Shown here: piece by piece, positions 5,435 through 60,552 of the stretch
How positions within the stretch are numbered: position 1 is the first letter of the stretch
How the letters are laid out: each line of letters opens with the position of its first letter
From: Salvia splendens
Taxonomy: Eukaryota > Streptophyta > Magnoliopsida > Lamiales > Lamiaceae
Direction: 5' to 3'
NCBI RefSeq assembly: GCF_004379255.2
Contig: NC_056042.1
Span: forward strand, 13,439,901 to 13,503,900
Length of the DNA stretch: 64,000 bases
Program-made: the position numbers and the translations under genes
Notes under the pieces: generated by a model
What the model saw: only the letters and a program-made list of their open reading frames with translations
The model's database searches: none
Told to the model about the DNA's origin: nothing

Positions 5435-6850
5435 CTATAGCAACTTATTCATTTGATCACAGTTTAACCCTTTGGTTAGCGGGTCCGCTAGATTATCTAT
5501 TGACTTCACATAGTCAATTGTAATCACCCCTGTTGTGATCAAATGTCTCACGGTGTTATGTCGTCGACGTATATGTCGAGACTTACCATTATAGAAACCA
5601 TTGTTTGCCCTTCCAATAGCCGCTTGGCTATCGCAGTGGATCAGCACTGGTGGCACTGGCTTAGACCAACATGGAATATCTTCAAGGAAGTTCTTAAGCC
5701 ACTCGGCTTCCTCACCAGCCTTATCTAAGGCAATGAACTCCGATTCCATTGTTGATCGGGCTATACATGTCTGTTTTGTAGATTTCCACGATACAGCACC
5801 ACCCCCAATTGTAAATACGTATCCACTTGTTGAAAGTGAGTTTCTATTATCAAATATCCAGTTCGCATCACAGTATCCTTCAAGTACCGGGGGGTATCTC
5901 GAGAAGTGTAGCCCATGATTTTGAGTATGTTTTAAATATCTCAAAACCCTCACAAGAGCTCTCCAATGCTCTTTGCTAGGATTGCTCATGTAACGACTCA
6001 ACTTGTTCACGGCACAAGCAATGTCAGGTCGAGTGCAATTAGTCAAGTACATAATGCACCCGATGACCCGTGCATACTCTTCTTGTGCAACAGGCTCGCC
6101 TTTGTTTTTGCTCAAGTGAACGTCGAGTTCAATTGGAGTCTTAACTGGCGCGCCATCATAGGCCTTGAATTTATTCAATATCTTCTCAACATAATGTGAT
6201 TGTGTTAAGATGATTCCATCAGACGTTCTTAGAATCTTCATTCCAAGAATTACATCGGCTAGACCCATGTCTTTCATGTCAAAGTTTCTCTTTAACATGG
6301 CCATTGTATCGTTAATTACTTGAGTGTTGCTACCCAAGATTAACATATCGTCAACGTATAGACACACTATAACATGGCCGTTATTAGTGCTCTTGATGTA
6401 GACACATTTGTCGCACTCGTTGATTTTAAACTCATTTGATAACATCACATTATCAAACTTCAAGTGCCATTGCAATGACGCTTGTTTTAATCCATATAGA
6501 GACTTTACGGGCTTGCATACCTTTTTCTCTTGTCCAGGTACTAAAAACCCTTTGGGTTGCTCCATATAAATTTCATCTTCTAATTCACCATTTAGAAACA
6601 CGGTCTTTACATCCATTTGATGAATCTCAAGATTGTGCAATGCAGCAATAGCGAGAAGCACTCGGATAGATGTAATCCTTGTTACAGGTGAATATGTATC
6701 GAAGAAGTCATGTCCTTCCTTTTGTTCAAAACCCACCTTTACTACTAATCGGGCTTTATACTTATCAACTGTTCCATCGGCCTTCAACTTTCTTTTAAGG
6801 ACCCATTTGCATCCTAAAGGTTTAGCACCTTTGGGCAAATCAACCAACAC
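5435..6850 (-). pseudogene. copia reverse transcriptase and RNase H
   Basis: A 471-codon open stretch. The reverse transcriptase part opens with [20 protein letters not shown], contains KARLVVKV and [16 protein letters not shown], and has the catalytic box YVDDML at about residue 167. The RNase H part has the motifs [16 protein letters not shown] and HCDSQAAIG and ends DPLTKGLNC, all typical of Ty1/copia. It would copy element RNA into DNA and remove the RNA strand. It is cut off upstream by an in-frame TAG at 6,851-6,853, where relatives have Trp, and downstream by a TAG at 5,435. No active-site residue looks lost in this stretch, but it cannot be made as part of a polyprotein. Confidence 0.93.
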
Positions 6851-27000: not shown

Positions 27001-27305
27001 TGATGAGGCTCGTTTCATGCATGTGTTCTGTGATAGTACTGCACCCAATTCTACTATCTAACGTGCGAATATGAGCCATGTGTGTATGAAAGTTCGCCAT
27101 ATTCAAAGGAAGAACTAATCAACTAGGCGGACAGACAAATCGAGGAAAAAGAGTGAAACTGTTGCGTGAACGGATTAAGTCAGATCAATCGGAGCCACAG
27201 GAGTTCCCGCATAGAAGATGGAGCTAAAAACCCCTACCAAAAGCCAAGGGCATGAATGATATTTCGAGAGGACGGTACCCTAGGGATCAGAGCCCTACGC
27301 CTCTC

Positions 27306-27313
27306 TATAAATA
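27306..27313 (+). promoter_or_regulatory. TATA box in 5' LTR of A
   Basis: CTCTCTATAAATAGCAAGCC, conserved at 59,375-59,382 in the 3' LTR. Confidence 0.6.
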
Positions 27314-28182
27314 GCAAGCCAAGCGCGAGTTAGGGGGGGCAGATAGAGAGAAACACATTCCTGATTTCAGCTCTCTTCAAGGGCTAAAATGGGAGCTCCC
27401 AACACTCAACACTCCTGAATTCTGTCACTCACACACTTGGTCTTAGTTTAGTTTAGCAGCGTGGTGTGTTAGTTTTATCAGCTCTATCTTTTAGTTCTGT
27501 AATTCCGCTTCGAGAAGAAGTGATGAAACAATTTCTACTCTTAGTTCTTTTTACTTCTAGTTTATGCTTAACGTTCAGACTTGGATGTGTTGATTCGGTG
27601 ATTTCAGTTTATTGATCAATGTTTTGTGGAAGTTTGTTATTATGCTTGAATTCTCTGATCTACTTTTGATTTCCTATTTACGATGCATATCTTTGCTCAA
27701 GTATTTTGTTGCGGTTTGATTTGGTTAGATCCGAGTCTTTGATTTATATTTATATCTGATAGATGAGTTGGTATTTCCGCATGATTATGGATGAGTTGCG
27801 GAGAAAATTATGGATGAAGTGCTTTAGGATGTTTAGATCTGATAGATGAGTTGGTATTTCCGCATGATTATGGGTTAGTTTCTTATTCACGTGAGTGTAG
27901 TTTACTTCTTGGGGGCAGATTTTTAAATTTACAAATTGTTATGATAAGATTTGTTGTTTTAGAATGTTCAGATTTGATTATGCTTTGTGTTTTATGTTGA
28001 TTCCGTGAAGAAGATGAAGTTGTTAGAAAAGTTTTACTTTATAGTACGTTTTGCAGGAGACTGACAGTTATCCACTTTATTCTGTTTGTCCATTTCAAGA
28101 AATTACGTGATGAGTTGATCAAGTAGATTTTATTTCGCTTAAGTAAGTGGATCAGTTTAGTCTCTCAAGTAAAGTAGTTTAA

Positions 28183-28309
28183 CTTAACCCACCCCTAGAA
28201 AGCGTGGCCGCAACCATTCCTATTCATGTCCGCAACCAATGTAAAACACATCATCTCTGTGGGATCGATCCTTACTTCCATATACTAGTTAATAGTATTG
28301 TGGGTTAAG
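28183..28309 (+). other. Conserved LTR stem-loop, A 5' LTR
   Basis: CTTAACCCAC (28,183-28,192) pairs perfectly with GTGGGTTAAG (28,300-28,309) around 107 nt. The loop contains GTGGGATCGATCC. In B and C the same stem is CCTCAACCCA / TGGGTTGAGG. Confidence 0.6.
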
Positions 28310-28522
28310 GTTTTGAAATCACTTTTGAGCTCTCATTCAAGTCGGATATAAGTCAAGTTGACCAGTCTGATTTTCCACTGGATCCACACGCCAGCATTTT
28401 GCAGGTAGAAGACATACATCTGGCCAGCTGGATCAGTTTGACGATTTAACTTGAGTAATCCAAAACATCAGTAGACAAAGAGAAGAGAGCAGGCGACACC
28501 ACAAAGAAAGCAAACTTTCAAA

Positions 28523-28540: not shown

Positions 28541-28819
28541 TGATGACGTTTATCCTACATTTGTTGCAAGACACTTTGGTGTACATATTGTTAATATTTT
28601 CTTCCTTTTGTTTTCAATTGAGAGAGAGCTCATGGAAACAACATTAGAGAATCAATGTCCTTATCTATGTGGATCAAGCGTTTTCCCTGCTGTTGTGGAC
28701 CAAAGGAACTACTGGAGCAAGAGAACACATAGATGGGCGGAGCGTCTCTGGTTTTGCTTAAGAATTTTAGTGTAAATTTTGTAAATAAACTCTTTGTTGT
28801 TTTTTTTTGTTTTCCCCAA

Positions 28820-29560
28820 TTCGACGACACCGAGTTCAGGAGGCAGACAGAAGAAGAAGAAGAAGAAGAAGAAGAAGAAGAACCAAATGTTGTCCAACCT
28901 AGACTACCTTCTAGTCAGCCAGTTGACTCAGATGCCAACCGTGAAGAAAGTCAGGACATCATCTTCATGAGTCCGCTAGGATCAATTGCCTGCCTAGAGG
29001 AGGTAGAAACTACCATTGTTGGTGATCAGGAGGATGATCCAGAGATAGGGTCACTCTATGCCCACGATGAGAACAAACCAGCCCATGCTATCTCTAACAC
29101 CTCCGGTCAAGAAGCAATATATATCAAACCAGACTTGCTGGTCGGTTTACCCGCATTCTTGGGAGCTAGTACCGAAAGGCCAATCAAGTTCTTGCGTGAG
29201 TTCGACAAAATTTGTAGGATGCAGAAAAGGCCAAATGGGTCAAGTGAGGAGGACTTCAAGCTAAGGGTCGTCTCTCTCTCTTTGAAGGATGAAGCAGATA
29301 CTTGGTTCAGAGGGTTATCACCAAACACCATCAAGTCAAGGCCGGAATTCAAGGAGGAGTTTCTCAACCACTTCTTTCCAGCATCAAAGACAAGTGCACT
29401 TCGAAGGGAAATCAGGGAAGCTACTCAGGGGTGAAGAGAGCTTAAGTAAATATTGGCAAAGATACAAGGGTCTTTTGGACGCATGCCCAAACCACAACAT
29501 GTTAGAAGTGGAGATCTATTAAAGATTCTACGATGAGATGGATGCGAAAAACAAAGACCT
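28820..29560 (+). pseudogene. gag of Athila element A
   Basis: The open frame to 29,434 contains an acidic run encoded by a (GAA)n microsatellite (28,849-28,881), then the retrotransposon gag core: LVGLPAFLGASTERPIKFLR, EFDKICRMQKRPNG, FKLRVVSLSLKDEADTWF, LSPNTIKSRPEFKEEFLNHF and FPASKTSALRREI. This is the capsid-like domain of Ty3/gypsy gag (PF03732 family). A frameshift near 29,425 moves the next motif, ESLSKYWQRYKGLLDACPNH, into another frame, and a stop cuts it at about 29,520. No zinc knuckle is evident. The start codon is uncertain because the frame is open upstream into non-homologous leader. Confidence 0.8.
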
Positions 29561-35645: not shown

Positions 35646-35696
35646 ATATATATATATATATATATATATGATATATATATATATATATATATATAT

Positions 35697-35979
35697 TTGA
35701 TCTATGTAAAACTAAATTTAAATACAGAAACGCAGAACAATATCATACGTAGGGCACTTTTAGGTCATAGTTAGTTAATTTTTAGGTCATGCTAACAAAG
35801 CATGACCTAAAATGATCTTAGCATGACATTAAACCCAAATATTATAATATGACCTAAAATTGCTTAATTATGACCTTCTGTGTTTTTGGTTAATTATTGA
35901 CCATTAGATTATCTAATCCTAGGGCCAAGATTTGAGCTGCATTTTTGGATTTAAATGCATTTTTATTTTGATCATCTCC
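35697..35979. mobile_element. Small TA-flanked element E1
   Basis: Ends TTTTGATCATCTCC next to (TA)n, the same terminus as E4 (42,188-42,200). It contains a perfect 14-bp hairpin TTTTAGGTCATGCT / AGCATGACCTAAAA at about 35,790-35,823. Non-coding. Confidence 0.5.
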
Positions 35980-36002
35980 ATATATATATATATATATATA
36001 TA

Positions 36003-36250
36003 GATGTGTGATCAAATATTAACTTTTTATAGTAATAACTAATAACTAAATATCAATTTTGTATATTAAAAATATCAACACAAAGACATAAATTTATCAA
36101 TCTTCTTATGTTGATAAACTTATGTCTTTGTGTTGATATTTAAATTTACATGTTGTATTGATATAATTATATCTTTGTGTTGATAATTTTAATACACAGA
36201 ATTGAAAGTTATTAGTTATTACTGTAAATTAGTTAGAACACTAACACAAC

Positions 36251-36252
<2 letters not shown>
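36003..36252. mobile_element. Palindromic MITE E2
   Basis: About 250 bp between two TA tracts, with inner inverted pieces AACACAAAGACATAA / TTATGTCTTTGTGTT and outer AGTAATAACTAATAAC / GTTATTAGTTATTACT. A second copy in inverted orientation lies at 39,414-39,646. Confidence 0.7.
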
Positions 36253-36284
<32 letters not shown>

Positions 36285-36286
<2 letters not shown>

Positions 36287-39200
36287 TTATACTAAAATGA
36301 CAACACTTATTTAAATGACATTGTACTAGTAATGAGAACCGTTGGATTCTAAACCAGATTCATCCTTATTCTGCCATGTGGCAGTCTTGATTTAATGTTA
36401 AAAAAATTAAAAATAATGCAGAAGGCTATTAATGGAAATAAAATTATAGCAGATTTTCTCCAAACGTAAATCTGGGTATTTCCTCCTTCTCTCTTTCTTC
36501 AATTTGTTTCTTCAATTTAAGCCGTTAATCCATCAAATCTTCAGGGGAAAAATGCCTTCAATCTCTGTAATTCTCTCAATCGCTTGCGCTACTTTCATTC
36601 TGCTAATTTCAATCTGTGTAATTCTTCCAAATCGCTGGCTGCTGCTTTCAATCTCTTTTTTCAATTCCGCAGATATTCATCTATGTTATTCTGTATTCAA
36701 TCTTTGTAATTCTTCATTAAAATCTTCCATCTTCATTGAATCCATGGAGAATGATGATCCTGCTGACGTCCAATTCATTAATTCCGCAAACGGTTAATAT
36801 TTACTTATAATCGTGTGATTGTTAAATTGCTTATTACAGTTAATGGATTTTGATATTGATTGAATTTCGTGAATTTGATATGCAATTGAACTTACGGATT
36901 CGTATCTTCTCTTGTAATTGAAATATATGTCTCGGGAATTGAATCGTGGGGGTTTATATTTTATAACTTACTGCAATTTAGTGATTGACTGTTTGTATCA
37001 CGCCTTACAGATTTCGTTTGTCAGATTGCTTGACTAAATATGTTATATTTCTTGCTCATGTTTACTAAATTGCATGTCAGTGTCCGATATTCCCCGATGA
37101 TCGACCAATTGAAAAAAATTCTCTAATTGTAATTTGTTGATTGATTGTTTTTATGCCAGATTGATTGTAATTTATTGATTGATTATTTTTATTTCTCCAT
37201 ACAAATTTGTATGCCAAATTGCTTGTTTAAATAAGTGGCATTGCTTACTTATATGTATTAAATTGGATGTTAGTTTCAACTGTAATGCTAGATTTTGGGA
37301 AAGAGTTGAGAGCAACTCCCCAGCCTTGCCTGATACAGAAAAGAGGTTAAGAGTGGAAGGAGATTTTTATTTCATTGGAAGACCGTATGCAACTGAAGAT
37401 CAGACAACGAAAGAGTTGAGAACAACTCATCGGCATTGCTTGTCTGTAACAATTTTTTTCACATACTCTCATACAAATTCAATTAGCACTTGCCTCAGAA
37501 TTAGTAATTGCTTGGTTGAATGCATTGGATTGCTTGCTCCGTAATTCGAAATAGCATATATTATCATTAATTCCATATTTTTCTTTATAATTTAATTGCA
37601 TCACATATTGCATGACAATTTAAAATGTATTGCATATCAATTTATAATTTAGTGCTTGGTAGCACCAAGGATTTAAACAGATTAGTGCTTGAAGTTTTTT
37701 ATACTCAACTCAAAATTCGTATCGCAATTTGCTTGCCATTGTGTCGGAATTTGCTACAAGAGTTTGTTTTGCTGGCCAATGTGTTAGAATTTGCTTACCA
37801 TTGTAAATCTTGCCTTATGCATGTTTAACATTCAATGTCTACACCAATCAAAAGTCATTGCCCATCAAGAGTTAGTTTACTCATTGCCCATCAAGAGTTA
37901 GTTTACTCAAATTTTTTTTAAACAAAACACAGTGATGTTCATTCTCCTAAAACAATATCATTCACTATTCAAGGTCTGGGGTATTCTGCAACCATCTTTT
38001 CAACATCAACGGGTCATTTCTTTTGCACCTCTTCAAAGTGGTGTGTTGTCGTTCTCATTACGTCATCAACGACTCGTTTCTTTAATTGAGTCCTGTGTTG
38101 CACGATAAAAACCATTACACTTATCATGTATTAACAAGCACATTCTCAACCATTAATTAGTAATTAAAGCGAATATTAAAGGAACAATTAATAAGCTTGA
38201 ACAAGCAATTCTAACAAACTGAACAAGAAATGCGAACACTTTGAACAAGCAACCTGTTTATCAAGCAATTCTAACACTTTGAACAAGCAATTCTACCACG
38301 CATACGTTTATCAAGTAATTCCAACGGGCATACAATTCAAAATAGCTAAATACTAATGTATTAACAAGCACATTCCCAGCCATTATAACACACTGAACAA
38401 GAAATGCCTTTTGACCCACATTTTGAATGATTATCAAGCAATGCGTTTATCAGGCAATTCTAACACACTGGACAAGCAATACATTTATCAAGCAATTTTA
38501 ATACACTAGACAAGCAATACGTTTATCAAGCAATTTTAATACACTGGACAAGCAATTCTAAAATACTGAACAATAAATTATCAATCTAATTAATTGTATT
38601 GAAAAATTAATAGGCATACCAAGCAAAAGAGACCATAGGATAGATAATTCGAAATGTAAGCAATAGAACGAGGTCGAACTGACCTCGACAGTGCATTGTG
38701 TCAGTCAAATCGGCCAACTGCCGATGACAACAACAACGCGACTGACCCGACGAACAACCACTTACGCAATAGTGAAACAATCAACGCATAAGCAACTAAT
38801 GAATCATTAAATAACCAAGACCACTAGAATCGGAATGAAAAATTTGCTTACATGAGTTCAAACAAATTGACACACGTCAATACCAAATCCCAAAAATGCA
38901 CACATAACAATTACCCAACCATTAAAAGAAACTACCAATTCGTAAAATTAATCGGATGAGAAAAGATGAGAGAGAAAAGCTGGAATTGATCAGCAGCGAC
39001 ACTCCTTCTTCCGTCGACGCTAGAATCGAAAACGGGTGACGGGGAGAACTGCTAGAAGAGAGACGCTTAATTGGAGATTTCTCCCTAGGGTTCAAGATTG
39101 AGAGAGAGTCGATTAATTGAAGAGAGAAAGACCGAAGAGAGTTATTGCTGAGTGGGAGAAAAATTGTAAATTAAAGTGCAAAATAACCGGGATTTTCAAA

Positions 39201-39377
39201 TCCCATATGAGTTTCTTTAATGTGAAAATGACAAAAATACCCATGCAAGCAATATTACGTTAATAGGCAAACAATTTGTACTCTAATTCTATAATTCAAT
39301 CTCGTCCATCTATTTAAGATATCAGATGGCTTAAAATGGTGTTAGCTTGTCATTTTAACTATGGTGTCACCATAGTG

Positions 39378-39380
<3 letters not shown>
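36285..39380. mobile_element. 3.1-kb TA-flanked element E3
   Basis: Ends GGTTATACTAAAATGACAAC and, inverted, ACCATAGTTAAAATGACAAG are imperfect terminal repeats. Near the left end the plus strand has a short open start (ATG 36,745, MENDDPADVQFINSANG) followed by GTTAATAT as a possible donor. Near the right end the minus strand has C/T-rich leader-like sequence (39,180 down to 38,900). Both halves contain many ATTGCTTG-type motifs, and 38,210-38,560 is a degenerate tandem array of GTTTATCAAGCAATTCTAAC. No transposase domain is seen. Confidence 0.5.
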
Positions 39381-39413
<33 letters not shown>

Positions 39414-39417
<4 letters not shown>

Positions 39418-39646
39418 TTGTATTTGATCACACATCTATATATGGTTGCGTTAGTGTCCTAACTAATTTACAGTAATAATTAATAACTTTCAATTCTATG
39501 TATTAAAATTATCAACACAAATACATATTTTATCAACACAAGAAAGATTGATAAATTTATGTCTTTGTGTTGATATTTTTAACATACGAAATTGATATTT
39601 AGTTATTAGTTATTACTGTAAAAAGTTAGTATTTGATCACACACCT
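39414..39646. mobile_element. Palindromic MITE E2, second copy, inverted
   Basis: Same family as 36,003-36,252, opposite orientation: it ends TTAGTATTTGATCACACACC where the first copy begins GATGTGTGATCAAATATTAA. Confidence 0.7.
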
Positions 39647-39999
39647 ATATATATATATATATAGAGTAGTGATTTAGGGCAAGTGCCCATTAAGTACATA
39701 ACTAGAGAACAAATCACAGCCACAAGATTAAGAAAATCAAGGGAGTATTAATACATGTGATTTTTGAATTTAAAAGAGAATCAGTTCACTCTTAGCACAA
39801 ATTTACTTCACTATAACAAGGTGGGGGTATAATGGTCACTTCACAAACAAATTTAGGGTAGAAAGGTAAATGCTCTCATTTGAAAATTAACCTCGTCGCG
39901 CGATTCAACCTTCTCGTCGCCGTCGTCGTCGCCTCGAAACCAGCGACCTCTCCGTCGTCGTTTTGCACCGCGGAATCGGAATCAGTTCCCTTCCACAGC

Positions 40000-40105
40000 A
40001 TCGCCGATTGAAGCGTGCGGACTCTCTCTCATCATCTGAAGCACCTCTCTGACGGCGCCGCACGCGTCAAGCATATCCACCGATCGCGACAGAGTGTTGA
40101 AAGAA
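40000..40105 (-). pseudogene. DUF241 gene fragment in E4
   Basis: On the minus strand this reads LSRSVDMLDACGAVREVLQM then MRES, matching the E5 copy at 42,600-42,700 and the plant DUF241 family pattern (a leucine-rich helical region with LLDLCGxxRDxLxxMKE). It is shorter than the E5 copy: homology breaks at about 40,100. Confidence 0.6.
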
Positions 40106-40551
40106 TTGGCAGAATAGGATGGGGCAGGTGTCACTCTTGTTTAAAGTTTCTGTCACAAAGTTTGGTTTCAACACAGAAACGGAGAGGCAGATTGTGTATG
40201 GAATTGCTGTGAACTTCTCTCTATTTCCTCTACTTGTGTAATTGAGAGATGGAAAGAGAGAATGGGCAGAAAGAAAGCTCAGGTTAAAAGAGCAATTTAA
40301 TGGTGATAATTACAATTTAATTGGGTTAATTTCAATTTAATTGAATTGTTGGCTGTTTAATGATGGAATCGATTCTTTCAGGTGGTGGTGGAGTGTAAGA
40401 TAGAAATATGAGTAGAGTAGAAAATCTGGTGAATTTAATTGGGATTAAATTGATCTGAAATAAATTTTGATTAATCACCATGATTAGAATTTATTTGGTG
40501 ATTAAATACTTGCAGATAACGGCTAAGGAGTGGAGTAGAAGCTAAAGCATT

Positions 40552-41394
40552 TTTATAAGAAAATATCATAGAGACTTCACTCTAACCTTGGAACACATCA
40601 CTCTAATCATGTATTTATTTCACTGATGTGAACAAAATATATCACTATAAGAAAATATCGCATAGACTTCACTATAACCTTTGAACACATCACTCTAATC
40701 ATGTATTTACTTCATTGATGTAAACAAAATATATCACTATAAGAAAATATCACATAGACTTCACTCTAGCCTTGGAACACATCACTGTAAGCATGTACTT
40801 ATTTCACTGATATTCACAAAATAGATCAATCACTATAAAAAATATCACAGAGACTTCACTCTAGCCTTGGAACACATCACTCTAATCATGTACTTACTTC
40901 ACTGATGTTAACAAAATAAATCACTATAAGAAAATATCACAGAGACTTCACTCTAGCCTTGGAACACATCACTCTAAGCATGTACTTACTTCACTAATGT
41001 TAACAAAATAGATCACTATAAGAAAATATCAGAGACATCACTCTAGCCTTGGAACACATCACTCTAATCATGTATTTACTTCACTGATGTAAATAAAACA
41101 GATCACTATAAGAAAATATTACAGAGACATCACTCTAACCGTGGAACACATCACTCTAAGCATGTATTTACTTCACTGATATGAACAAAATAGATCACTA
41201 TAAGAAAATATCACAGAGACTTCACTCTAACCTTGGAACACATCACTCTAAGCATGTACTTACTTCACTGATATTAACAAAATAGATCACTATAAGAAAA
41301 TATCACAGAGACTTCACTCTAGCCTTGGAACACATCACTCTAAGCATGTACTTACTTCACTGATGTTAACAAAATAAATCACTTGTTCGTAGAG
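40552..41394. repeat. Minisatellite, nine units of about 92 bp
   Basis: The unit begins TCACTATAAGAAAATATCAC, then AGAGACTTCACTCTAGCCTT, GGAACACATCACTCTAAGCA, TGTACTTACTTCACTGATGT and TAACAAAATAGA. Units differ at a few positions. A related five-unit array is in E5 (42,955-43,395). Confidence 0.9.
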
Positions 41395-41704
41395 GAGGTT
41401 TAAATACTGCTTGTTTTTTAATATCAATTTAGTATGACATTTGCAGTAGTATCTTAGACTATATGTTGTTACTTCTAGGACATTCTCTTATGTAATAACT
41501 AAGTATGGCCTAGATAACATGATGCCTTGCTCCGTGGTATGTGTCTTTCCCTGCTTCTTTAGAATATGTCTTTTATTTCTTAAAATTAAATGTCTTAAGG
41601 ATCCTTTCCTACTTTTTGTATATATTATTATAAAAGCATAGCCATGAGCAATATTCAACGTACTTGCTGTGCAGTGACAATTTTTCCTGTCTCGTTTCTC
41701 TGAC

Positions 41705-42000
41705 AATTAATTTTTTTCTGTCCACTCCGAGCAAGGGTAGAAGCTGAAATCCGGCCTCACTTGCCTCAACCACGGCAAGAAGCGCCTGTTCTCCTCCTCC
41801 GGCGCCGATCTCCGCCCCTTCTCCAGCACCGATATGGAAGGAATCGCCACCGCGCCGGATCTGGCGAGAGGAGGGGGCAGGCCGACGATTCTCTCTGGCA
41901 AATCATGTACTTGAACTGCTGGGGGCAGAGCTGACCACCGGAATCCCCACTCCTCTCCGTTGGGATCCTCCTCTCGCACAAGGTCGCCGACGGATTATCT
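41705..42000. other. GC-rich captured segment in E4
   Basis: About 300 bp of much higher GC than its surroundings (CCTCCGGCGCCGATCTCCGC and similar), open in more than one frame on both strands. It is absent from E5, which has a different GC-rich segment in the same place. Likely another captured gene piece; I do not recognise it. Confidence 0.45.
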
Positions 42001-42589
42001 CTCCACTTGTTCGTAGAGAGAGTATGCATGAATGTGGTGTGTATGTCAAAATATGGAACAATGTATTTTAGAAAATACCCCATGCAATTTGTATTAATAG
42101 AAAATGAATACTTAATTTAGTCATTAGAGATTAAGATAATGAGTGGCTGAGATTTGTTCTCTAGTTATACATTTAACATTAGTTATACTTTGATCATCTC
42201 CATATATATATATATATATATATAGTAGTGATCTAGGGCAAGTGCCCATTAAGTACATAACTAGAGAACAAATCACAGCCACAAAATCAAGAAAATCAAG
42301 GGCTAGTATTAATACATGTGATTTTTGAATTTAAAGGAGAATCAGTTCACTCTTATCACAAATTTACTTCACTATAACAAGGCGGGGGTATAATGGTCAT
42401 TTTACAGACAAATTAGGCTAGAAAGTAAAATGCTCTCATTTGAAAAAACCTCGTCGAGTGATTCAACCTCTCTTCTCTCTTCTGCAAAATTTGCGCGATT
42501 CAACCTTCTCGTCGCCGTCGTCGTCGCCTCAAAACCAGCGACCTCTCCGTCGTTGTTTTGCACCGTGGAATCGGAATCAGTTCCCTTCC

Positions 42590-42785
42590 GCCACATCGCC
42601 GATTGAAGCGCGCGGACGTTCTCTCTCATCATCTGAAGCACCACTCTGACGGCGCCGCACGTGTCGAGCAGATCCACCGATCGCGACAGAGATTCCTCCA
42701 TCGATTTCTGATCAACACCATCGACTCCTGATAATTTATTCCGGCTGAATTCCTCGAATGAATTGTAGAGCTGCGCAAGCGCCAC
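42590..42785 (-). pseudogene. DUF241 gene fragment in E5
   Basis: The minus-strand open stretch contains LAQLYNSFEEFSRNKLSGVD, GVDQKSMEESLSRSVDLLDT, CGAVRVVLQMMRENVRALQS and AMWRKGTDS. These match the N-terminal half of plant DUF241 proteins (LYNSVEELL, ESLSRSVxLLDxCGxxRDxLxxMRExVxxLQSAxRR). The matching part ends near 42,590; the open frame then runs into unrelated sequence. The parent family's role is not established. It is a captured exon piece, not a gene. Confidence 0.65.
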
Positions 42786-42954
42786 GAGATCGGATTAAAG
42801 CAATTCCGAGCTACCAGATCCGCATTTCAATTTCTCAAACTACGAGTGCATAACTTCTACTGATTTGAGTTTTGAGATTGGCTACGTACACATATTTTAT
42901 AGAATTTCTTGTAAATATGATGTTTCGTTTTTTCAGAATGTTTCTTGTAAATAC

Positions 42955-43395
42955 ATCACTCTAAGCATGTTTTTACTTCACTGATGTGAACAAAATAGAT
43001 CACTATAACCAAATATCACAGACACATCACTCTAACCGTGGAACACATCACTCTTAGCATATTTTTATTTCACTGATGTGAACAAAACAGATTACTATAA
43101 GAAAAATAACAGAAACATCACTCTAACCATGGAACACATCACTCTTAGCATGTTTTTACTTCACTGATGTTAACAAAACAGATCACAATAAGAAAATAAA
43201 ACAGACACATCACTCTAACCATGAAATACATCACTCTTAGCATGTTTTTACTTCACTGATGTGAACAAAATAGATCACTATAAGAAAATATCACAGAAAC
43301 ATCACTCTAAGCATGTTTTTACTTCACTGATGTGAACAAATAGATCACTATAAGAAAATATCATAGAAACATCACTCTAACATTGGAATACATCA
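42955..43395. repeat. Minisatellite, five units of about 90 bp
   Basis: Units with ACATCACTCTTAGCATGTTT, TTACTTCACTGATGTGAACA and AAACAGATCACTATAAGAAA. They share the core of the E4 array but have their own variants; the fourth unit is shortened. Confidence 0.85.
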
Positions 43396-43719
43396 CTCCA
43401 TTAATATCACGAATTATTGTATATGTTGAGAAACAATCAAGAAATGGTAGTAGTAATAAGTTGAGCAACAATCAAGAAATGACGCAAGTAATAAGTTGTG
43501 CAAAAACTAAGAAAGAGCAGTAGTAATATGTTGAGCAACAAATAATGAACTCATTGTGACATTTCATCAAACACATATTGTGCTCATATTAATATACATC
43601 TATTCTTCTTTATCTTACAATGAATCTAACCAAAAGATTTAAAGAAAATAAAAAAAACAATAACAAAATTTACAGATAATCAAAAACAATTTCACGAAAA
43701 ACATTTTAGAAATCCATCG

Positions 43720-43990
43720 AAATTTTCCAACAGCTGCAACGATCACCAAAAACTTCTCCTCCATCACCGGCGGCTCCGCCTTAGAAGCTCTGTCTCCTCC
43801 TCCGTCGGCCTCGAGGTACCTCTCGGCGTCTTTGGAGAGCTTCCAGTAGGAGCAGGCGAGGATCAAATGAGCGAAAGCGATGAGCCCCAGCATCGCCGCA
43901 AGCCCGCCGAACAGGTATGGCACCGGCGAGTGCCACGGCGACCGCAGAACTGGCGACGGCGCTGCTGCTGATGATGCATCAAAATCCGCA
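43720..43990 (-). pseudogene. GLUTAMINE DUMPER (GDU) gene fragment in E5
   Basis: On the minus strand the frame SPWHSPVPYLFGGLAAMLGL, IAFAHLILACSYWKL, and after an acidic linker EEKFLVIVAA, is the conserved core of the plant Glutamine Dumper family: a single membrane-spanning helix preceded by SPWHSPVPYLFGG and followed by the cytosolic VIMAG-type box. These small membrane proteins alter amino-acid export. The captured piece lacks a proper start and runs into A/T-rich element sequence after VIVAAVGK, so it is not a functional gene. Confidence 0.85.
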
Positions 43991-44201
43991 ACTCCTCCTC
44001 CACCCTCTCCTCTCCCTCCAGGCTGCTCCGGAGCTCCCTCTCTAGCTCCACGTTCCTCCGCCGAAGCGCCTCCGACGCATCACGGTGGCGGCCAGAGATC
44101 GGCACACAGGGAGAGAGAGAGAGAATGATAATAGAAATAGAGAGAGATAATGTGTGAATGGAATGTGTATGTGAGAATATGGGAACGAAGTTTATTTCCA
44201 A
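43991..44201 (-). pseudogene. Second captured coding segment fused upstream of the GDU piece
   Basis: The minus-strand frame from 44,201 reads element end sequence and then RHRDASEALRRRNVELEREL, RSSLEGEERVEEELRILMHH, a charged helical stretch. It enters the GDU segment out of frame (the GDU frame is shifted), so any fusion protein would end early at 43,863. Parent gene not recognised. Confidence 0.45.
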
Positions 44202-44721
44202 AAATACCCATAATATGTGGCTGAGATTTGTTCTCTAGTTATACACTTAAAATTAGTTAGACTTTGATCACTCCTCTCTCTCTCTCTATATATATATATT
44301 GTGTGTGTGGAGGGGGGGTTTCCTAATGCCCTTAGGATTTTTCTACACGCAGTCACTTTACCGTAGACATCATGTGGCAGTCACTTTTCTTTTTTATGTG
44401 TTTAGCGGAAAGTGGTTCCACTTTAAGCTTTTTAACTCACCATTTAAGAGGGCTTTTGTGTCTGGCTCTAAGGTTGAGCTTTTCTCTCATACTTGCATCA
44501 TCTATACTGACTATGAGCTACTGGGAGGGGTGGTTTCCATTGTTTAGCATACTTTATTTCCATCAATTCCCCTCACCGTCAGTTCGAAACAGTTAAGTTT
44601 TAAGCCCGTTCATTAAACACATATCCTAAAAAAACTATTCTAAAAGGACCTAGCACAAAATCCTAAAAACAAACTAACACATAAAACAAAACTAACATAT
44701 ATATACATGTCGTACTGGCTA

Positions 44722-59068: not shown

Positions 59069-60552
59069 TGATAATGCTCATTTCATGCATGTGTTCCATG
59101 ATAAAACTGCACCAAATTCTACTATCTAACGTGCGAATATGAGCCAGGTGTGTGTGAAAGTCTGCCATATTCAAAGGATGAACAGATCAACTAGGCGGAC
59201 AGACGAATCGAGGAAAAGGAGTGAAACTGTTGCGTGAACGGATCAAGTCAGATCAACCGGAGTCAGCAGGAGTTCCCGCATGGAAGATGGAGCTAAAAAC
59301 CTCTACCAAAAGCCAAAGGCATGAATGACATTTCAAGAGGACGGTACCCTAAGGATCAGATGCTTACGTCTCTCTATAAATAGCAAGCCAAGCGCGAGTA
59401 GAAGGGGGGGCGCAGATAGAGAGAAACACATTCCTGATTTCAGCTCTCTTCAAGGGCTGAAATGGGAGCTCCCATCCTCAACACTCCTGAATTCTGTCAT
59501 TCACACACTTGGTCTTAGTTTAGTTTAGCAGTGTGGTGGTGTTAATTTTATCAGCTCTATCTTTTGGTTCTGTAATTCCGCTTAGAGAATAAGCGATGAA
59601 ACAATTTCTACTCTTAGTTCTGTTTACTTCTAGTTTATGCTTGACGTTCAGACTTGGATATGTTGATTCAGTGATTTCAGTTTATTGATCAATGTTTTGT
59701 GGAAGTTTGTTATTATGCATGAATTCTCTGATCTACTTTTGATTTCCTATTTACGATGCATATCTTAGCTCTAGTATTTTGTTGCGGTTTAATTTGGTTA
59801 GATCTGAGTCTTTGATTTATGTTTTGTCTAGTTGCGAAGAAAATTATGGATGAAGTGCTGTAAGATGTTTAGATCTGATAGATGAGTTGGTATTTCTGCA
59901 TGATTATGTGTTAGTTTCTTATTCACGTGAGTGTAGTTTACTTCTTGGGGGCAGATTTAAATTTACAAATTGTTATGATAAGATTTGTAGTTTTAGAATG
60001 TTCAGATCTGATTATGCTGTGTTTTATGTTGATTCTGTGAATAAGATGAAGTTGTTAGAAAAGTTTTACTTTATAGTACGGTTTGCAGGAGACTGACAAT
60101 CATCCACTTTATTCTGTTTGTCCATTTCAGGTAATTACGTAATGAGTTGATCAAGTAGATTTTATTTCATTTAAGCAAGTGGATCAGTTTAGTCTCTCAA
60201 GTAAAGTAGTTTAACTTAACCCACCCCTAGAAAGCGTGGCCGAAACCATTCCTATTCATGTCCGCAACCAATGTAAAACACATCATCTCTGTGGGATCGA
60301 TCCTTACTTTCCTATACTAGTTAATAGTATTGTGGGTTAAGGTTTTGAAATCATTTTTGAGCTCTCACTCAAGTCGGATATAATTCAAGTTGACCAGTAT
60401 GATTTTCCACTAGATCCACACGCCGGCATTTTGCAGGTAGAAGACATGCATTTGGCCAGCTGGATCAGTTTGATGATTTAACTTGAGTAATCCAAAACGT
60501 CAGTAGACAAAGAGAAGAGAGCAGACCACAACACAAAGAAAGCAAACTTTCA
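59069..60552 (+). repeat. 3' LTR of element A
   Basis: Starts TGATAATGCTCATTTCATGC, ends GCAAACTTTCA; TATA box at 59,375-59,382. Nearly identical to the 5' LTR apart from scattered substitutions and the missing partial duplication. Confidence 0.92.
60215..60341 (+). other. Conserved LTR stem-loop, A 3' LTR
   Basis: CTTAACCCAC (60,215-60,224) pairs perfectly with GTGGGTTAAG (60,332-60,341) around 107 nt. Confidence 0.6.

Follow-up and report, generated by a model that had tools for sequence, protein, structure and literature searches.

A chain of transposable elements joined by TA microsatellites in Salvia splendens

In a 64-kb stretch of Salvia splendens DNA (contig NC_056042.1, positions 13,439,901 to 13,503,900; hereafter the window), transposable elements stand end to end between positions 35646 and 44299, and the individual elements are bounded by microsatellites, often (TA)n. 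This array is a chain of four families, E1, E2, E3 and E4/E5, three of which have related ends. It is very probably an array of the SaTar type (PMC5907723), that is, non-autonomous Mutator-like elements (MULEs) of four families that inserted successively into a TA microsatellite. The data fit cut-and-paste transposition by a MULE transposase that makes a target duplication of about 10 bp and strongly, though not exclusively, favours TA repeats.

The TA-linked array

All eight perfect TA runs of at least 12 bp in the window lie inside 35646-44299. They make up seven tracts, two of the runs being one tract split by a G. The window is 61% A+T and holds 22 perfect TA runs of at least 8 bp. Seven runs reach at least 16 bp, and no such run appeared in any of 500 first-order Markov simulations of the array stretch. 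TA makes up about 2% of the 8.65-kb array (192 of 8654 bp), and the termini of the elements are located at the tracts. The run search and inverted-repeat mapping thus bear out the initial annotation, made from the letters alone, which had placed element ends directly at seven TA tracts. That annotation counted six elements; E1 to E5 and an inverted E2 copy (E2r) are indeed present, but the array has at least seven members when a 23-bp E2-type remnant is added. Its view that every element is bounded by TA holds for most of them, but E5 ends at about 44274 and is flanked on its right by a compound (TC)n(TA)n tract. Different families stand end to end, none interrupting another, in the window and in four stretches fetched from elsewhere in the genome (L009, L010, L011 and L023). 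Nesting by another element type does occur, as a member in L023 holds a 1.5-kb insert with a Plant_tran frame.

Terminal inverted repeats fit MULEs in E1, E2, E2r, E4 and E5, not in E3. Against the maximum in 300 shuffles, the inverted-repeat score was 32 versus 28 for E1, 97 versus 35 for E2 and 84 versus 30 for E2r (E4 and E5 are given in Table 1). E2 is strongly palindromic, as had been noted from the letters, and folds back on itself (fold z = -10.1). Only 7 bp of TA lie between the 23-bp remnant and E2r. E1 begins with TTGATC in the window; its left end is probably trimmed, because three relatives carry GGGTT ahead of this motif.

Table 1. Coordinates of the array and its parts within the window
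Feature	Position	Strand	Note
TA tract 1	35646-35696	.	interrupted by one G; left edge of array
E1, 283-bp miniature element	35697-35979	+	terminal inverted repeats imperfect, about 47 bp long
TA tract 2	35980-36002	.	TA run search
E2, 250-bp fold-back miniature MULE, high copy	36003-36252	+	inverted repeats, fold
TA tract 3	36253-36284	.	TA run search
E3, 3.1-kb element	36285-39380	+	ends unlike those of other elements; no transposase recognised
TA tract 4	39381-39413	.	TA run search
E2-type remnant, 23 bp, GATC end only	39414-39436	-	89.7% match to E2 end over 29 bp, a few of them from the tract
E2r, inverted E2 copy	39444-39645	-	about 76% identical to E2
TA tract 5	39646-39663	.	TA run search
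E4, 2.5-kb Pack-MULE-like element	39664-42201	+	inverted-repeat score 48, shuffle maximum 28 (300 shuffles)
Probable BPS1 fragment in E4	39985-40110	-	Pfam E 0.0074, under curated cut-off
92-bp minisatellite in E4	40554-41383		
Probable Transferase-family (PF02458) fragment in E4	41935-42018	+	Pfam E 0.024, under curated cut-off
TA tract 6	42202-42224	.	TA run search
E5, 2.05-kb Pack-MULE-like element of E4's family	42225-44274	+	inverted-repeat score 55, shuffle maximum 25 (300 shuffles)
BPS1 (PF03087) fragment in E5	42480-42794	-	E 1.2e-10
92-bp minisatellite in E5	42949-43315		
GLUTAMINE DUMPER fragment in E5	about 43750-43983	-	protein search
Compound (TC)n(TA)n tract	44275-44299	.	TA part 44287-44299; right edge of array

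Copies elsewhere in the genome

E2 gave the cleanest test of TA preference, because its query held no TA tract. There were 745 first-look candidates in this search; scoring covered 40 of them, and the listing gave 40 other full-size places at 94-96% identity. The flanks were read for all 40; one copy lies in L011, and two others (L064 and L065) are apparently duplicate assemblies of a single site. A TA run of at least 8 bp lay within 25 bp on both sides of nine copies, on one side of ten and on neither side of 21, so that 19 of the 40 are adjoined by TA at one end or both. Such a run is found in only 0.5-1% of background 25-bp segments (53 of 11,051 in the window outside the array and 360 of 37,640 in the fetched stretches). 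Nineteen copies have no dinucleotide tract on either side. When these were scored for a duplication of 10 bp, the only length considered, at least 8 of 10 positions agreed in seven copies, at least 9 of 10 in four and all in three (L039, L046 and L067); the corresponding values from 1000 re-pairings of the flanks, with equal slack allowed, were 2.2% and 0. GA, TC and TG tracts adjoin some other copies, and at L049 (C16:2556700-2557420) two tandem E2 copies are linked by a TG repeat instead of TA.

The array stretch as a whole was also searched against the genome and gave 244 matches, part of them listed and mostly to the E4/E5 minisatellite. In 20 chosen stretches around leading matches, we counted ends that aligned to within 7 bases of the terminus and asked for a TA run of at least 8 bp within 30 bp; some neighbours share a tract. 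By this count, 30 of 33 E4/E5-family ends are near TA (left 17/17, right 13/16), the ends without nearby TA being in L025, L026 and L028. E1 relatives are near TA at three of three left ends and two of three right ends, the miss having a 7-bp run. In L009, L010 and L023, a tract separates E1 from a neighbouring E4/E5-type element. Beyond the tract, the outer flank of a member in L016 starts with GGATGTATTCAT. At least 11 of the 20 stretches contain matches to this flank, some of the matches being weak (73-76%), and in L026 it abuts an E4/E5-type end with no tract between; we take it as a putative further family.

A relative of E3 at about C1:41746112-41754428 is 82% identical over 1.7 kb, starts with GGG and ends with CCCC, and it is flanked on both sides by TGTTGGAGTA, a perfect 10-bp repeat in non-TA DNA (flanks read by eye). 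A second relative, in L014, starts in non-TA DNA (one end seen), and E3 ends near TA numbered none of one in the fetched stretches. Pfam gave no match in the four E3 frames scanned, and no transposase was found in the scanned frames of E3, E4 and E5. By eye, with no domain scan made, no transposase was recognised among the frames of the relative on C1.

TA is a favoured but not a necessary target, because some E2 copies and one E3 relative have duplications outside TA. The preferential insertion into TA repeats that had been proposed at first is thus upheld for E2 (19/40 copies) and E4/E5 (30/33 ends), but it is not obligatory. The accompanying idea that one microsatellite serves as a serial landing pad is upheld as well. 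Duplications of 9-11 bp without TA, which the initial annotation had named as evidence to the contrary, occur in some E2 copies and the one E3 relative.

Related ends and a putative transposase-bearing relative

We compared 11 ends, ten from the window and one from a transposase-coding stretch in L022, in 55 pairs, and each of the 19 pairs scoring at least 22 was set against 400 shuffles. For E1 against E4, and for E2 against both E4 and E5, the score of the best pair was equalled in 0-1 of 400 shuffles. The similarity of E1 to E4 was known from the letters and is confirmed here: the right end of E1, GGAGATGATCAAA, is common to E4, and the score with the E4 right end was reached by 0 of 400 shuffles. 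Related ends are, however, not confined to these two elements, as the E2 ends resemble those of E4/E5 too. E1 and E2 ends showed no direct pairing at the score tested. The ends of E3 pair with no other element, and the score of its own two ends in the 70-bp end test was reached by 4 of 400 shuffles.

In L022, a 28-bp TA tract separates an E4/E5-family right end from the transposase-coding stretch, whose frames match FAR1 (E 2.8e-16) and the MULE transposase domain (E 3.1e-24); the adjoining stretch L029 has a SWIM match under the cut-off. The end of the transposase stretch aligns with the right end of E4 (0 of 400 shuffles). This stretch is a candidate for the transposase-bearing relative with E4/E5 termini that it had been suggested to look for, on the strength of one end only. 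A 0.38-kb miniature in L011 also belongs here. Bordered by TA at either end, it lies between an E2 and an E4/E5-type element, and 57 of 62 positions at one of its ends agree with the end of the L022 stretch. Its second end aligns to that L022 end over about 39 positions and starts with GGGTTGCGTT, like many E2 copies. The order of the chain in L011 is E4/E5-type, E2, transposase-related miniature, E4/E5-type.

Gene fragments in E4 and E5

Pack-MULEs carry host gene fragments between MULE ends, and the cargo differs between members of one family. TA targeting is not known to be among their defining features. The E4/E5 family resembles them in having MULE ends around host gene fragments, and E5 is, judged by its sequence, Pack-MULE-like. 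The initial annotation had called E4 and E5 gene-capturing; this is borne out for E5 by its BPS1 and GLUTAMINE DUMPER fragments. The gene cargo of E4 is probable, its own matches being weak and those of its relatives above the cut-offs. The GLUTAMINE DUMPER search with E5 gave 1266 matches at E of at most 0.001 among 1776 candidates, the best being a Salvia splendens protein (85% identity over 49% of the query, E 7.9e-38).

BPS1 frames were found in stretches that hold E4/E5 relatives (L009, E 2.2e-11; L013, 3.1e-10), as were Transferase frames (L009, 3.6e-21; L017, 2.5e-16; L019, 5.2e-18; L028, 9e-32) and a frame with the leucine-rich repeat (LRR) N-terminal domain (L027, 1.1e-5). These frames are inside or next to the matched members, whose bounds are approximate, and they come from 20 chosen frames, several of which gave no match.

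E4 and E5 are 86% identical over the left 0.44 kb and 91% over the last 66 bp, and 92-bp minisatellites lie between; from the minisatellite to the last 190 bp or so there is no mutual match. The left 1.17 kb or so of E5 is 91-94% identical to members at L009, L013, L016 and L017. Matches to the 92-bp minisatellite extend over several kilobases in L011, L021 and contig C253. The 15-base sequence CACTTGTTCGTAGAG occurs at 41380-41394 and 42004-42018, bordering a 0.6-kb segment of E4, as if the segment had been acquired or duplicated there.

Another E5 frame (43866-44234, minus strand) matches four proteins, two of which are S. splendens hypotheticals (P0122 and P0124). Its product is presumably like RESPONSE TO LOW SULFUR proteins, although no tool gave that name. 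P0124 pairs the frame with a sequence that its source names glycerol-3-phosphate acyltransferase. Some public gene models may derive from captured fragments or from such elements.

Mechanism and alternative explanations

In the cut-and-paste reading, the elements would be excised and reinserted by a MULE transposase of the FAR1 type or by several related ones. Each insertion would make a target duplication of about 10 bp, which would be visible in ordinary DNA as a 10-bp duplication. An insertion in a TA repeat would leave TA on both sides, and this TA could be the next target. Insertions into the linking TA, and not into element bodies, would then give a non-nested chain. The members would have arrived in some order one by one; a transposase of the L022 type may have moved the array elements in trans, and the TA tracts may have been lengthened by slippage or gap repair after insertion.

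Several observations weigh against this reading. A TA run is lacking at 21 of the 40 E2 copies, the E3 relative lies in ordinary DNA, and 12 of the 19 non-microsatellite E2 copies have no clear duplication. Target duplications are demonstrated for E2 copies and the E3 relative only, and for none of E1 or E4/E5. A duplication within a TA repeat is invisible. E5 has unequal flanks (TA on the left, TC-TA on the right), which do not fit a plain duplication. The inverted repeats of E3 do not rise above shuffles (score 22, maximum 26 in 300 shuffles). The weaker end similarities, reached by 3-5 of 400 shuffles, count little among 55 uncorrected pairs, and a second end of the L022 transposase stretch was not found in L029 (best score 30, shuffle maximum 35). 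The 20 stretches are a non-random set, and their query contained TA tracts (simple repeats are reportedly skipped by the tool). L009 and L023 share one arrangement of E1 and the E4/E5-type element, whereas L010 has another; given the shared arrangement, E1 and E4/E5 may have moved jointly as a pair.

A recombination model (Valdes Franco 2018, PMC5907723), offered there as speculative, is a rival on mechanism and not on the array being SaTar-like. MULE circles whose two ends are linked by microsatellite filler would enter genomic microsatellites by homologous recombination, not through insertion by a transposase. This explains joining without nesting, and also unequal flanks, both those of E5 and those of other copies that adjoin GA, TC and TG tracts. 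Since the 10-bp duplications outside microsatellites in some E2 copies and the E3 relative indicate that ordinary cut-and-paste works there, we regard recombination as a rather unlikely origin of the array.

Insertion could instead have been non-selective in AT-rich DNA, the TA tracts growing later by slippage at element ends. PMC5907723, citing work in maize, mentions short TA sites that expanded there after insertion. Later growth, however, leaves the end-to-end linkage of different families unexplained, and with TA at about 2% of the array, untargeted serial insertion is very unlikely. The TA runs beside nearly half of the E2 copies also contrast with the low background frequency given above. 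We therefore give this explanation a small probability.

E4 and E5 might represent a local tandem duplication and not two insertions, as they are adjacent, in the same orientation and similar at their ends (86-91%). The left part of E5, however, is closer to other loci than to E4, and the middles of the two elements do not match, which makes a tandem duplication quite improbable.

That the array is one composite element (35.6-44.3 kb) moving as a unit, or that E2-E3-E2r is a single element with long inverted repeats, as the inverted orientation of E2 and E2r around E3 might suggest, is virtually discounted: among the matches listed, the whole array matches end to end at its own place only, at least 40 further copies of E2 exist, of which several show separate 10-bp duplications, the E3 relative has its own ends and duplication, E2 and E2r are merely about 76% alike, and E2, E4/E5 and other families recur elsewhere in other orders and combinations. 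The check for a composite unit proposed in the initial annotation thus came out in favour of separate elements. A Helitron was set aside as well, because the inverted repeats and the 10-bp duplications are in keeping with MULEs.

Comparison with known systems

The initial annotation regarded a serial array of different families as unusual. This did not stand, because unrelated MULE families chained via microsatellites, none interrupting another, are published as SaTar for guayule, rice, sorghum and citrus (PMC5907723), and clusters are known from pineapple (PMC8449440). SaTar arrays, like the Salvia array, have several non-autonomous MULE families in linear, non-nested order joined by microsatellites, often TA (PMC5907723). 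Further shared features described there are copies that have a 10-bp target duplication in place of the microsatellite, flanks made of various dinucleotides, transposase-bearing MULEs in such tracts, and fused or truncated neighbours within clusters. In guayule, too, TA is favoured but not required (PMC5907723). The Salvia array differs in its host and in two members of 2-2.5 kb with host gene fragments (those of E4 weak when taken alone) and minisatellites, whereas the families of guayule measure about 0.4-1.7 kb and, in rice, three out of five are labelled non-Pack-MULE (PMC5907723). A word search of the main text of PMC5907723 found no form of "captur".

MuTAnT of Medicago truncatula (PMC4486113), the nearest counterpart of E2, is likewise a fold-back miniature MULE of less than 300 bp located mostly in TA microsatellites. 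Outside perfect TA it shows short target duplications, and some copies lose terminal Gs, both as here. Its autonomous relative AutoMuTAnT has a Jittery-like transposase, a further likeness. MuTAnT differs in its reported 9-bp target duplication, and the parts of PMC4486113 available to us describe no chains of different families. The termini of the array, compared by eye only, look different from the MuTAnT mask quoted in that paper. The pineapple Ac-mMITE clusters share (TA)n-flanked, non-nested miniature inverted-repeat transposable elements (MITEs) derived from Mutator, some with GA and CT flanks; the available text of PMC8449440 describes two related MITE families and mentions no long cargo-bearing members. 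In carrot, fifteen MITE families lie in TA stretches, a Mutator origin is suspected and the recombination model is cited, but the available text deals with MITEs only (PMC8227079). Micron of rice and TAFT of maize are further TA-repeat-flanked elements, as cited in PMC4486113 and PMC5907723.

The architecture is thus already known from SaTar and the pineapple clusters, and what is modestly new is the Salvia host and the gene-carrying members. In the open-access literature searched, we found no gene-capturing members in microsatellite-joined MULE arrays and no report from Salvia. Salvia joins the plants with microsatellite-joined MULE arrays, and the presence of gene-carrying members means that fragments of unrelated genes become neighbours. 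The chances seem about even that a TA-targeting MULE system of Salvia, including gene-capturing members, juxtaposes BPS1, acyltransferase (Transferase family) and GLUTAMINE DUMPER fragments at TA microsatellites, and that one FAR1-type transposase lineage drives miniature, cargo-bearing and chain-forming forms. PMC5907723 leaves open why one element behaves in two ways, through recombination or through transposase choice. The E2 family, with its 40 other, closely similar copies, of which some lie in TA and some are flanked by 10-bp duplications in other DNA, is a good substrate for this question.

Surroundings of the array

A direct repeat of 1.5 kb, 91% identical, is located at 27001-28520 and 59069-60552, with a Retrotrans_gag frame (28733-29434) just inside it. 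The two copies may be long terminal repeats belonging to a single large retroelement that encloses the TA-linked array. A Ty1/copia-type reverse transcriptase frame lies on the minus strand at 5435-6850 (RVT_2, E 2.7e-73).

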